A stretch of DNA of 52,734 nucleotides from a virus. Both the position numbers and the translations under genes were made by a program. Shown one piece after another: positions 6,762 through 50,429 of this stretch (positions within the stretch are counted from its first letter, which is position 1; every line of letters starts with the position of its first letter). The notes beneath the pieces are model-generated. The model had not been told where the DNA came from. It was given only the letters and a program-made list of their open reading frames with translations, and searched no databases. The DNA is taken from positions 1 through 52,734 of the IMG/VR virus record IMGVR_UViG_3300033155_001357; one strand, written 5' to 3'.

Positions 6762-7722
6762 AAGTAAGCTAAAGTATATCCCCTGGATCGTTCTGATCCT
6801 TGCAGTGGGAGGTCTTGCCTTCTATCAGTGGCGTGCTGCCGACGATGCCCGAGCGCTATTATATGCTCAGAACTCCGAGCTGATGAAGGCTAATCTAGAC
6901 TTGGGTAGAGCACAGACAAAGATTGTAGATCAAGCTACGCTTCACACTGTGGCTATGGCTGACATCGATCAGAAGTGGAAGGCTGAGATAAAGAAACGTA
7001 ATGCTTTAATTACGCTGTATGCTCAGTTAGAGGCTCGATATACAGCAGAGAAGAAGAAGGTCAAGGTTACAACTAAGATTATCTATCGTGACAAGCCTGG
7101 TGAGACTATAGATCTACCTAAGAACAAACTGTATGTGCGTCAAGAAGATGGCAGCTACAAAGAAATCACTTCGATGGCTTGGAATTACAAAGACTTCAGA
7201 ATCACAATATCTGGTGATGCTATTCAGCAAACTCTTTCCTACAAGCTACATCAACGATTCCGTGTCCAGCTAGTAGAAACTAAGCTTCCTACTGGCGCTC
7301 GCAACCACTATGCAAACTTATTTGAACTCGACGACAAGGGCAAGGTTGTTGCTAAGCTACAGTTAGCTCAATTCAACGTGTTGCGTGCTCAAGAGCTGGA
7401 AAGCCACATGATGTGGTGGAACCCAAAACTGGATCTTGGTGTAGGTTTTGGCATGAGTCACAAGCTTGACTTTACTTGGTGTGCTGAGCTAGGTTTATCT
7501 GTGTCTGCATATGGTAAGACACCCAATGACCTGTCTTGGAGGTTCTTCAGGCTAGGCACTGGTATAACTGGCAATGGTTTTTCCCTTACCTTCTCTCCTG
7601 CTCAATTCAATCTAGGTCAACACTTACCTTTGATTAGCAATATGTGGTTGACACCTGCCATTGGAGTCAGTTTACCTGATATACAAGGTGTATTTACATT
7701 AGGAATATCTGTAGTATTCTAA
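6751..7722 (+). CDS. Membrane-anchored protein with coiled coil and beta-rich C-terminus
   Basis: 323 residues from the ATG at 6751, chosen because GGAGG lies 7-8 bases upstream. Residues ~8-25 form a transmembrane helix (WIVLILAVGGLAFYQW) followed by a ~60-residue coiled coil and then a long beta-rich region ending in Phe (GVFTLGISVVF), like an outer-membrane strand. Inner-membrane anchor, periplasmic coil and envelope-facing end recall spanins, but no lipobox or classic spanin pair is seen. It is encoded in the plus-strand block that also carries the endolysin. Best called an envelope-spanning protein of unknown function. Confidence 0.6.
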   Translation: MDIRSKLKYIPWIVLILAVGGLAFYQWRAADDARALLYAQNSELMKANLDLGRAQTKIVDQATLHTVAMADIDQKWKAEIKKRNALITLYAQLEARYTAEKKKVKVTTKIIYRDKPGETIDLPKNKLYVRQEDGSYKEITSMAWNYKDFRITISGDAIQQTLSYKLHQRFRVQLVETKLPTGARNHYANLFELDDKGKVVAKLQLAQFNVLRAQELESHMMWWNPKLDLGVGFGMSHKLDFTWCAELGLSVSAYGKTPNDLSWRFFRLGTGITGNGFSLTFSPAQFNLGQHLPLISNMWLTPAIGVSLPDIQGVFTLGISVVF

Positions 7723-7730
7723 TATTTATT

Positions 7731-8285
7731 ATGAAATACCAACAGTGTTCAAAATGTAAAACGCCCAAAAAAACTTCAGAGTTTTCAATAAGTAAACGGG
7801 CGAAATCTGGTTTGCAATCTTCGTGTAAACAGTGTCAAAAACAATGGAGAAAAAAGAATAAAATACAATTACAAATCAAAAAACAACAGTATTGGCAAAC
7901 AAAAAAAGATAATCCCGATTTTGTTGCAAAAAGAAAAGCTTATTATAAAGCCAACAAAAAAGATATTTTAGCCTATTCTGCTACGTGGCGTAATACAGTT
8001 AAAGGGAAATTTACAGAATACAAATCTAATGCCAAAAAAAGAGGAATTCTTTGGAAATTTACAGAAAAGGAATTTAGAAAATTTTGGCAAAAACCTTGTG
8101 TTTATTGCGGAACCTCTATAAGTACAATAGGGCTTGATAGAATAGATAATCATAAAGAATACAGTCTAGCGAATTGTGTTGCTTGTTGTGGTCTGTGTAA
8201 TCGTGCAAAAGGCATTCAAACAGTGAAAGAATTCTTATCATGGATTAAAAAAGTGTATAATTATTCGGAAATAGGTATTTTATGA
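7731..8285 (+). CDS. HNH homing-type endonuclease (mobile, AT-rich)
   Basis: 184 residues. The N-terminus has two CxxC knuckles (CSKCKTPKK, SCKQCQ) and a Lys-rich region. The C-terminal HNH core has CVYCG, GLDRIDNHKEY and CCGLCNRAKG. Base composition is visibly more AT-rich than its neighbours, there is no good ribosome site, and it sits between two otherwise tightly packed genes, overlapping the next by ATGA. All of this fits a recently acquired free-standing homing endonuclease. Confidence 0.85.
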   Translation: MKYQQCSKCKTPKKTSEFSISKRAKSGLQSSCKQCQKQWRKKNKIQLQIKKQQYWQTKKDNPDFVAKRKAYYKANKKDILAYSATWRNTVKGKFTEYKSNAKKRGILWKFTEKEFRKFWQKPCVYCGTSISTIGLDRIDNHKEYSLANCVACCGLCNRAKGIQTVKEFLSWIKKVYNYSEIGIL

Positions 8286-10340: not shown

Positions 10341-10749
10341 ATATGATGATGGCAGACATGCTTTTGATTGGGTTATACTAGATCTGTTTTTGGTTATTGA
10401 GTGTCATGGTGAGCAGCATTACAAACCTGTCACCTTTGGTGGTATCTCACAAGAAGAAGCAAACGAGCGTCTCATTTCTCAACGCTATAGGGATGAGATT
10501 AAGGCTCAAGCAGCTATCGATGCAGGCTTTACTTATATCGTGATTCCATATACTGACTATGGTAAAGTTGATGATGAATATATATGGCAACTGTACAAAG
10601 AATGCTTTAACCCTGACAAGATTCCAAAAGAGAAGAAAGCAGAGCCAACCGATTGGGAATTGGAGCAAAAAGAACGGGCCAGAGAGTATAGACAAGAACA
10701 ATATAGACGACAGAAAGAACACAAAAGGAGGCTGAAAGATGAGTTATAA
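10198..10749 (+). CDS. Vsr/DUF559-like endonuclease
   Basis: 183 residues with KLHRLIGD, FKIYQEYPVNRVN, HAFDWVILDL and LVIECHGEQHYKP. The Asp and E-x-H/Q pattern is that of very-short-patch-repair-type (Vsr/DUF559) single-domain endonucleases encoded by many phages. The C-terminus is a long basic coiled helix. It likely nicks or repairs DNA. The conserved KLHR segment lies near the N-terminus, supporting the ATG at 10198 despite the overlap with the previous frame. The amidase gene starts 11 bases before its end. Confidence 0.7.
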   Translation: MKTKRFKTSYRKNSSKLHRLIGDTLKASKLFSGFKIYQEYPVNRVNSEYDDGRHAFDWVILDLFLVIECHGEQHYKPVTFGGISQEEANERLISQRYRDEIKAQAAIDAGFTYIVIPYTDYGKVDDEYIWQLYKECFNPDKIPKEKKAEPTDWELEQKERAREYRQEQYRRQKEHKRRLKDEL

Positions 10750-41529: not shown

Positions 41530-41849
41530 TTGTCTGTTCCTATCCAACTACTGTAACGATTAAGATACCATGCTGCAGGTTGCTTAGTGAGATCTGTTTG
41601 TTTCTTTGGCACAGTATACCCTAACAGTCGTGCGGCCTCCTTCTTTTCTTTATGGTCCACAAGTGCTACTTCAGTAATTACTACTTTATAAACAGGGCTA
41701 GTCTTTGTAGGTTGTCTAACTACAATTCCTTCACAGAAATATGTAAGACCCTTCGGATCACCCTTAGCATGTGCATGAAAGTATACTCCAGCACCTAGCT
41801 TAAAAGCATGCTTAGGAGATAGGCGGGCCGGGGTAGCTGCTTTGGTCAT
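41526..41849 (-). CDS. Hypothetical protein, 107 aa, directly after the reverse transcriptase
   Basis: Start at 41849 (AAGGAAATAC), inside the reverse transcriptase's last 38 bases, so the two are coupled. Beta-rich (GVYFHAHAKGDPKGLTYFC, then YKVVITEVALVDH). If the locus is a retron this is the obvious candidate accessory gene, but it has no known toxin motif. Confidence 0.6.
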   Translation of the reverse strand: MTKAATPARLSPKHAFKLGAGVYFHAHAKGDPKGLTYFCEGIVVRQPTKTSPVYKVVITEVALVDHKEKKEAARLLGYTVPKKQTDLTKQPAAWYLNRYSSWIGTDK

Positions 41850-42813
41850 GTATTTCCTTCCAACGTTGCTTTCTCTTCTCAAAATAATTTAGGAATTTCA
41901 CCTTCTGTAGGTGATTAACCATACCTACATAGTTAAGTTTACCTAGCATGAGTGGTCCCAGCGAAGTGCCCTGTCTTGCATACGTATCCAATTCTGCTCT
42001 GAGCTTACGCTTGTATGCTTTACCCACACCTGGTGTACTATTAACACCTACTCCTGTTACTATCTGTGGATGATTGTCTCTATATAGGACAACACTCTTC
42101 TTGTGGTTGGTTTTGTAACCATGCTTTTCAATGATAGCATTAACAGCCTTCTGTAAGCCAGGTGGGTATTTGTTTCCACTAAATGTAAGGTCATCCATAT
42201 ATCGTGTGTAACCCATGTCCATCATCCAAGCTATTGCTTGGAGTTCGATATCAGCTGTGCCAAAACATATACTAGAGACTAGAGGGCTTGTGGGTGCGCC
42301 TGTTGGTAGTCTAATCTCTCCTTTGATCTTCTCTATAAACATAAAACTAGCTGCATGCTCTAGCAATGCAAACAGTTCATCTGAGATTCCTTTATTTGCA
42401 TCTAAAGCTTTCCAGTAGTGAGTTAGTGTAGTTGAAGGGAAGAAGGCTTTCACATCCATCTTCACAATGACTTTACTATCTACATGATAGTAACCATTAG
42501 ATACTGCATCGTTAATTCCTCCTAGTCCGTAAACATAGGGAGAACGGGGGAGTTGTTGTAGTAGGGGAAGGAGTGCCCGCTGAATGAACTTAAGTTGTGG
42601 CTTGGGTTCTTCAATGATACGTGTTTTACCATTTGCTTTTGGGATTTTAAATGTGTTATATGCTTTCGATGAATTTGGGTTCCATGGTGCCATTATATTG
42701 AGAATATTATGCCACAACTGTAATCCATCTGCTGTGAGCTGTAATTCTATCACAGGTGTTTTAATATGATTGTAGAGAGCAATTGTTTTTGCACTTGTTG
42801 TTTTCATTCTCAT
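41812..42813 (-). CDS. Retron-type reverse transcriptase
   Basis: 333 residues. RT blocks in order: FKIPKANGKTRIIEEPKP (RT1-2), SNGYYHV at 105-111 (compare NAxxH of retrons), KMDVKAFFPS with catalytic D120, RLPTGAPTSPLVSSI (RT4), TRYMDDLTFSG with the YxDD box at 205-208, and PQIVTGVGVN with the retron VTG at 252-254. There is no maturase or endonuclease domain and the TGAPTSP block differs from the SQ-type of diversity-generating elements. Directly upstream is a hairpin array (42885-43097). Start ATG at 42813 or 42807. Confidence 0.85.
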   Translation of the reverse strand: MRMKTTSAKTIALYNHIKTPVIELQLTADGLQLWHNILNIMAPWNPNSSKAYNTFKIPKANGKTRIIEEPKPQLKFIQRALLPLLQQLPRSPYVYGLGGINDAVSNGYYHVDSKVIVKMDVKAFFPSTTLTHYWKALDANKGISDELFALLEHAASFMFIEKIKGEIRLPTGAPTSPLVSSICFGTADIELQAIAWMMDMGYTRYMDDLTFSGNKYPPGLQKAVNAIIEKHGYKTNHKKSVVLYRDNHPQIVTGVGVNSTPGVGKAYKRKLRAELDTYARQGTSLGPLMLGKLNYVGMVNHLQKVKFLNYFEKRKQRWKEIHDQSSYPGPPIS

Positions 42814-46235: not shown

Positions 46236-46247
46236 GCTAATTCCTTG

Positions 46248-46330
46248 CGGAAGGTAGAGGAATCGAACCCCAAGCCTTGCAACTCCCCAGGGGTTCAAAC
46301 CCTGTTGCCAACCATTTAGCGGTACCTTCC
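46248..46330 (-). tRNA. tRNA-Ser (TGA)
   Basis: Acceptor GGAAGGT/ACCTTCC, anticodon stem CAGGG/CCCTG with loop TTTGAAC, anticodon TGA, long variable arm, T-loop TTCGATT. Confidence 0.88.
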
Positions 46331-46457
46331 AATCGCGAGTGCTCTGATCTCTGAGCTATCCCTAGTCAATGTCTGATAATCCTAAAAGGATTCAAGGTGC
46401 GTAACACAATCAGATATTTTCTAGAGAATTGGATTCAAACCAATGACCCCTCGCGTG
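46331..46457 (-). tRNA. Circularly permuted tRNA-like gene, anticodon TTC if joined
   Basis: In transcription order: 3' half 46454-46420 (anticodon-stem GCGAG, GGGTC, T-arm ATTGG-TTTGAAT-CCAAT, acceptor TCTCTAG, A), a 54-base linker, then 5' half 46365-46335 (acceptor CTAGGGA, TA, D-arm GCTC..GAGC, A, CTCGC). Acceptors pair 7/7 (one G-T) and anticodon stems 5/5. Leftover CAC (46457-46455) and GATT (46334-46331) would join to a seven-base loop GATTCAC, anticodon TTC (Glu). Base 33 is A, T-loop base 56 is T and G18G19 is altered, so it is unusual or decaying. The linker itself pairs (TCTGAT/ATCAGA, AATCC/GGATT). Confidence 0.6.
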
Positions 46458-46528
46458 TGCGACTACTGAGAATCGAACTCAGATTACAGACATGGCAAGC
46501 CTGTGTCCTACCATTAAACGACAGTCGC
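46458..46528 (-). tRNA. tRNA-Gly (GCC)
   Basis: Acceptor GCGACTG/TAGTCGC, anticodon stem CAGGC/GTCTG, loop TTGCCAT with anticodon GCC, T-arm CTGAG-TTCGATT-CTCAG. Confidence 0.92.
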
Positions 46529-47247: not shown

Positions 47248-47414
47248 TCTTGTTCTCCAAACATTGCTACATAGTATTCTTTAATTTCTTCTGTTGTCAA
47301 CTTACCTAGTATTTCTGTATGTGTATGTGCCATGAGAGGAAAGAGATGACGGGGTAGGCCACTGTGTTGTGTCTCTGCCCACGCTATTTTACTGATCATT
47401 TCTACTCTAGTCAT
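47238..47414 (-). CDS. Hypothetical protein, 58 aa, ending inside tRNA-Val
   Basis: ATG at 47414 with GGTGGAG upstream; the longer frame crosses a tRNA fragment and another gene. MISKIAWAETQHSGLPRHLF, then a helical end. Stop TGA at 47238-47240 lies in the acceptor region of tRNA-Val(TAC). Confidence 0.55.
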   Translation of the reverse strand: MTRVEMISKIAWAETQHSGLPRHLFPLMAHTHTEILGKLTTEEIKEYYVAMFGEQEGA

Positions 47415-47416
47415 GG

Positions 47417-47441
47417 TACTCCACCCAGGAATCGAACCCGG
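47417..47441 (-). pseudogene. tRNA 3' fragment (T-arm and acceptor)
   Basis: CCGGG-TTCGATT-CCTGG followed by GTGGAGT is an intact T-arm and acceptor 3' strand, but no matching 5' half or anticodon arm is upstream; that DNA is the end of another small gene. Confidence 0.5.
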
Positions 47442-48948: not shown

Positions 48949-48956
48949 CTCCTTTG

Positions 48957-49028
48957 CAGATCACCGGAGACTCGAACTCCGCTTCCAGCCGGTTTTGGAG
49001 ACCAGCGAGCTTACCCTGAGCGTGATCC
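48957..49028 (-). tRNA. tRNA-Trp (CCA anticodon)
   Basis: Acceptor GGATCAC/GTGATCT, anticodon stem CTGGT/ACCGG, loop CTCCAAA with anticodon CCA, T-arm CGGAG-TTCGAGT-CTCCG. Confidence 0.92.
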
Positions 49029-50394: not shown

Positions 50395-50429
50395 TGGGCC
50401 ATAGAGGAGTTGAACCTCTGATTCCTCTT
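50395..50429 (-). pseudogene. tRNA 3' half with acceptor ATGGCCC
   Basis: AAGAG, GAATC, T-arm AGAGG-TTCAACT-CCTCT, acceptor ATGGCCC and A. No 5' half is directly upstream, but an exactly complementary 5' acceptor GGGCCAT with a D-arm-like sequence lies at 51358, 0.9 kb upstream in transcription order. Confidence 0.55.

Follow-up and report, generated by a model that had tools for sequence, protein, structure and literature searches.

An element located between tRNA-Gly(gcc) and tRNA-Ser(tga) in the tRNA array of a large phage resembles a single tRNA whose halves have exchanged places, and the question raised by this locus is whether it is a working permuted tRNA gene, a tRNA mimic, or what is left of former tRNA genes. 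The window analyzed was the complete contig IMGVR_UViG_3300033155_001357 (52,734 bases), a large-phage fragment with the tRNA array on its minus strand, whose gene content includes RecA, PolIII alpha, DnaG/DnaB-like, RNR, IMPDH and sigma-70. The window also encodes a reverse transcriptase (RVT_1, phrog_2825; 41812-42813, minus strand), near which no diversity-generating template/variable repeat was found.

Architecture and setting of the permuted element

Read in the RNA sense, which is that of the minus strand, the element consists of a tRNA 3' half, a 54-nt linker and a tRNA 5' half (Table 1). Its limits (46331-46457), given in an earlier sequence-only reading, were exact, and so was the placing of its outer ends at the processing points of the neighbours: the element is flush with A73 of tRNA-Gly and G1 of tRNA-Ser, with zero gap on either side, while the remaining gaps of the array range from 83 to 1888 nt, plus a single 3-nt gap. 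The matching acceptor and anticodon stems described in that reading were recovered in full, with 21 of 21 cloverleaf pairs formed (20 Watson-Crick and one G-U), distributed over the acceptor (7/7, including the G-U), D (4/4), anticodon (5/5) and T (5/5) stems. The loose bases total exactly seven and, once joined, give the loop GATTCAC. No tRNA was called by ARAGORN on the element in genomic order; on the joined 5' and 3' halves, the same program returned a complete 73-nt tRNA-Glu(ttc).

Table 1. Position of the element, its parts, its neighbours and related features (window coordinates where a position is given).
Feature	Position	Strand	Remarks
3' half	46420..46457	minus	CAC GCGAG GGGTC ATTGG TTTGAAT CCAAT TCTCTAG A
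3' half, loose bases	46457-46455	minus	CAC
3' half, anticodon-stem 3' strand	46454-46450	minus	GCGAG, then variable GGGTC
3' half, T arm	46444-46428	minus	ATTGG TTTGAAT CCAAT
3' half, acceptor 3' strand	46427-46421	minus	TCTCTAG; A73 at 46420
Linker	46366..46419	minus	54 nt, self-pairing; prolongs acceptor helix
5' half	46331..46365	minus	CTAGGGA TA GCTC AGAGATCA GAGC A CTCGC GATT
5' half, acceptor 5' strand	46365-46359	minus	CTAGGGA, then TA
5' half, D arm	46356-46341	minus	GCTC AGAGATCA GAGC, then A26
5' half, anticodon-stem 5' strand	46339-46335	minus	CTCGC
5' half, loose bases	46334-46331	minus	GATT
tRNA-Gly(gcc), upstream neighbour	46458..46528	minus	discriminator A73 = 46458
tRNA-Ser(tga), downstream neighbour	46247..46330	minus	base 1 (G1) = 46330
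Orphan T arm + acceptor 3' strand	47413-47441	minus	then A-CCA
Orphan T arm + acceptor 3' strand	50396-50419	minus	
Degenerate tRNA-Trp(CCA)-like gene	48955-49028	minus	without positions 8-9; missed by ARAGORN
Permuted element L142 (G044)			outer stem; sub-threshold YrlA; no TROVE on record
Permuted element L146 (G022)			outer stem; sub-threshold YrlA; no TROVE on record
Permuted element L147 (G039)			outer stem; sub-threshold YrlA; no TROVE on record
Permuted element L150 (G021)			outer stem; sub-threshold YrlA; no TROVE on record

The permuted tRNA architecture is real and goes beyond chance pairing. In a descriptor search the element scored 24.0, compared with maxima of 22.0 in 72 Mb of Markov-shuffled sequence and 22.5 in a second shuffled control of 170 Mb. 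When the sequence downstream of 148 phage T-arm anchors was shuffled, an equally good 5' half appeared in 0 of 59,200 shuffles; in the unshuffled data it appeared for one of the 148 anchors, that of the window element. A covariance-model search allowing permutation, proposed in the sequence-only reading as a check, was performed with a model derived from 45 phage tRNAs permuted in silico and gave 49.6 bits (E about 1e-13) for the element, the next-best place in the window reaching 21 bits. Because this model also matches ordinary tandem tRNAs, top matches were screened for ARAGORN genes on either half, and the window element had none. Chance pairing or an assembly error might be considered, given that the element occurs on a single metagenomic contig and that a second, 100%-identical contig (L002) spans a different part; against this stand the shuffle tests, and it would be surprising for an assembly error to stop exactly at both tRNA ends, making this the least probable of all the readings considered.

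Debris of tRNA genes is also present in the array, as two orphan 3' pieces and a degenerate tRNA-Trp (Table 1). No 5' half matching either orphan piece was found within the window, and distant partners for them were rejected. Odd tRNA-like sequences were also seen in related phages: in G003 (L042:10010-10141 and 10414-10510, minus strand) one carries a long paired insert at the place of the anticodon loop and the other a palindromic anticodon arm, and in G004 (L047:15047-15107, minus strand) there is a degenerate tRNA with a would-be anticodon TTA, matching the stop codon UAA.

Anticodon loop, tRNA body and predicted fold

The joined loop has G at position 32 and A at position 33, and hence lacks the Y32 and U33 of a usable anticodon loop. 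Among 354 predicted phage tRNAs, position 33 was T in 333, C in 19 and A, the base already remarked upon from the letters, in only 2, while G at position 32 occurred in 8. The body points to another class than the loop. The combination C1-G72 with A73 was found in 29 of 305 tRNAs (18 of these tRNA-Pro and one tRNA-Glu), and mean body similarity to 22 tRNA classes placed tRNA-Pro first and tRNA-Glu last, the single best body matches including tRNA-Val and tRNA-Ile as well. Since a Pro-like body with C1-G72/A73 is combined with a Glu-reading loop, GATT and CAC more likely represent leader and trailer sequence belonging to the neighbours than an old Glu loop. The earlier assignment to tRNA-Glu(TTC) thus holds as regards the seven bases and the ARAGORN call on the joined halves, and fails on the body; based on these sequence comparisons, a decoding tRNA-Glu is not supported.

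The altered bases of the D/T-loop contact had been regarded as a further reason for doubt. They are indeed there: the element has T56 (U56) together with GA in the D loop (G18-A19), which would permit an A19-U56 pair. As a doubt they are weak, given that the same change is found in ordinary phage tRNAs, where GA replaces the D-loop GG in 6 of 7 with T56 and in none with C56 (264 parsed), as if A19-U56 replaced G19-C56. The tRNA elbow of the element may therefore be kept, although its D loop is purine-rich and GA there is weak evidence taken alone.

The predicted fold of the 127-nt RNA had an energy of -39.7 kcal/mol (z -3.6). In this isolated fold, pairing probabilities were 0.85 or more for the anticodon, acceptor and D stems, and only about 0.1 for the AU-rich T stem, with which an alternative pairing competes; keeping the T arm costs just 1 kcal/mol. 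The linker, as had been described, pairs with itself (z -2.2 alone, -3.4 with the acceptor strands) and is predicted to stack coaxially as an extension of the acceptor helix. Such a prolongation would probably impede RNase P cleavage and CCA maturation; inhibition of RNase P by a leader paired with the 3' end has been reported (PMC9433436). The flanks of the element showed no tendency to pair (z +1.54, p 0.96), and neither a joining stem nor a bulge-helix-bulge motif was present.

Known permuted RNAs, phage relatives and RNA ligases

Circularly permuted tRNA genes have been described in algae and some archaea, e.g., Thermofilum pendens (PMC3978253), and share with the window element the leading 3' half, a linker at the acceptor ends and a break in the anticodon loop. 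The window element differs in having no bulge-helix-bulge or leader-trailer stem, in lying between tRNAs in a phage, in a loop without U33 and in a ligation that is only hypothetical. The literature search found no permuted tRNA genes in phages, in agreement with the sequence-only reading, which knew of none established there. The permuted (two-piece) tmRNA RF04321 likewise has swapped acceptor strands and a removable linker; the window element differs in possessing D and anticodon stems and in lacking a tag region, and it gave no Rfam match to this family.

The closest known parallel, omitted from the kinds listed in the sequence-only reading, is the YrlA type of bacterial Y RNA, a tRNA mimic whose parts follow this permuted order as well. 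The tRNA-like domain of YrlA corresponds to a circularly permuted tRNA (PMC11472068; PMC8394870) and has been proposed as a competitive inhibitor of an anticodon nuclease (PMC7790460). T arm, acceptor 3' strand, loop, acceptor 5' strand and D arm follow each other identically in YrlA (RF02553) and in the window element, whose linker-extended acceptor helix corresponds to the capped acceptor of YrlA. The loop of YrlA is short, whereas the linker of the window element is a structured 54 nt; moreover, the window element has a regular 5-bp anticodon stem that directly abuts tRNAs on either side, and lacks the outer Ro60-binding stem, a YrlA score and a detectable Ro60 gene.

Large phages also carry YrlA-like elements, frequently in the vicinity of tRNA arrays and RtcB. 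Among the RtcB-bearing phages searched, a row of several YrlA/YrlB-like Y RNAs was found in L114 (IMGVR_UViG_3300032164_000003; 7020-7900), flanked by a tRNA array on one side and by a Ro60/TROVE gene on the other, RtcB following about 2 kb beyond; their Rfam scores (24-64 bits) were below gathering cut-offs, with E-values down to 4.6e-14. In one of these units the anticodon arm appears to be complete and to read GTC. When 47 large phage records were scanned with the permuted model, non-tandem elements were obtained in G044, G022, G039, G028, G021, G023 and G018, and a second batch added one in G089. TROVE matches among the seven element records tested (all but G089) were restricted to G018 and G023, with no match on G028. 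The elements of G028 (L077:18175-18310; G028:157570-157639) and G089 (L253; G089:85008-85078), both RtcB phages, are tRNA-Ser(GCT)-like; in each, the anticodon arm is complete and the outer stem is long. Two matches were discarded: that of L062 (G020; 54 bits) is a tandem tRNA-Lys pair (L062/L144) and not a permutation, and a possible second permuted tRNA in G004 (L047:15170-15268, minus strand) scored 21, within chance reach over 1.2 Mb, although it has a T arm with encoded ACCA. The latter adjoins a shortened RtcB gene, and its flanks contain a GAGTAA/TTACTC pair.

Flank pairing in eight comparison elements (the seven without G089, plus the G004 candidate) ranged from z -1.2 to -3.5, with p of 0.03 or less in five of them, and most were matched by the YrlA model below its cut-off. 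The window element was the exception. Its permuted order, and the occurrence in L114 of a YrlA array next to Ro60 and RtcB, would be in line with a Y RNA proper bound by Ro60. Nevertheless, it has no outer stem, was not matched by Rfam YrlA either at E<=10 or in a whole-record search, and no TROVE gene was found on its contig or on G001-G004, all of them fragments. For these reasons it was not filed as a Y RNA, an identity considered very improbable, yet its mode of action may resemble that of the tRNA-like domain of such an RNA.

Neither half was matched when IMG/VR and GTDB genomes were scanned with exact and degenerate patterns, and the saccharopine-dehydrogenase-like and sigma-factor neighbours, used as protein anchors, retrieved no relatives. 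The PolIII alpha anchor recovered one identical 17-kb contig, in which the region is not covered, and relatives at 54-61%. Inspection of the locus in related phages, suggested in the sequence-only reading, showed that these relatives are without the element, and no homologue with compensatory stem changes was found by the pattern scans or the protein-anchored searches.

A search for an RNA ligase had likewise been suggested, and neither RtcB nor an Rnl2-type ligase (PF09414) was found on the 52.7-kb contig fragment, PF09414 being absent from all 17 records tested, window contig included; the PF09511 profile matched no control, so that its lack of match is uninformative. Cleavage by RNase P and tRNase Z would be expected to give the element 3'-OH and 5'-phosphate ends, which suit Rnl1/Rnl2-type ligases, whereas the partner ends joined by RtcB are 5'-OH. 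The substrates of RtcB carry 3'-phosphate or cyclic-phosphate ends (PMC7824862). Among the relatives, RtcB was full length in G003 and present in G004 with its N-terminal part not found. Sealing of the element by the RtcB of relatives was rejected, as the gene lies off this contig, the end chemistry differs and the RtcB-bearing G003 has no permuted match.

Competing readings and their meaning

The reading we tentatively prefer, with a probability of roughly 0.4, is that of an unligated, non-decoding permuted tRNA-like mimic with a tRNA-Pro-like body. One of its ends would be freed by 3' processing of tRNA-Gly and the other by RNase P cleavage of tRNA-Ser, and the product would be a stable 127-nt RNA with both ends meeting at the anticodon stem, which would stay unligated, would not decode and might act as a decoy. 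The 21 pairs, the 49.6 bits, the fold z of -3.6 and probabilities of at least 0.85 for the anticodon, acceptor and D stems argue for such a mimic, as do the G32/A33 loop, which cannot decode normally, the mismatch between body and loop, the acceptor capped as in YrlA, the possibly retained elbow and the recurrence of permuted elements in large phages. On the other side, the T stem has a probability of only about 0.1, the tRNA debris makes a relic plausible, no homologue with compensatory changes was found, and neither the flush fit nor the exact 7-base loop is required of a mimic. Decay and a decoy, mentioned as caveats in the sequence-only reading, have thus become the two top-ranked readings. 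A non-functional relic would derive from two tandem tRNA-Pro-like copies, the first having lost its 5' half and the second its 3' half, with the permuted order arising by chance, and it is nearly as likely as the mimic since the array contains orphan T-arm pieces (47441 and 50419, without 5' half) and a degenerate tRNA-Trp. Consistent with a relic, tandem genes for one isoacceptor reach scores similar to those of permuted genes (as in the tRNA-Lys pair), the loop bases are not tRNA-like and the element occurs in none of the relatives found; it is harder to reconcile with the absence of mismatches in 21 pairs and with the fold z, and each of the two deletions would need to have stopped precisely where the anticodon stem does and on, or close beside, the processing point of a neighbour.

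The original proposal of a permuted tRNA gene stands as regards the permuted architecture and the flush ends, and we consider a working gene unlikely. In such a gene, processing of the neighbours would be followed by sealing of GATT-CAC by an ATP-dependent ligase, after which RNase P and 3' processing would remove the linker and leave a 73-nt tRNA. The exact cloverleaf obtained on joining, the seven loose bases, an A19-U56 elbow that may form as it would in ordinary phage tRNAs, and ends generally suited to an Rnl1/Rnl2-type ligase would agree with this sequence of events, but against it stand G32 and A33, the Pro-like body with a Glu-reading loop, the lack of a flank stem, the pairing of the linker onto the acceptor and the failure to find an Rnl2-type or RtcB gene on the contig, the RtcB of relatives requiring other ends. 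If a working gene were nonetheless true, its ends would be cut by processing of the flanking tRNAs and not by a splicing endonuclease.

In the literature consulted, permuted tRNA genes processed to tRNA are known only from some algae and archaea, and permuted tRNA mimics from Y RNAs. Permuted tRNA domains resembling those of Y RNAs are found repeatedly in large phages with RtcB, and most of the contigs concerned have no Ro60 gene. If the mimic reading is true, an element that has no outer stem and is set free by its neighbours would represent a simpler, third arrangement, and, as a candidate phage decoy against tRNA-cutting defences, it could be put to the test.
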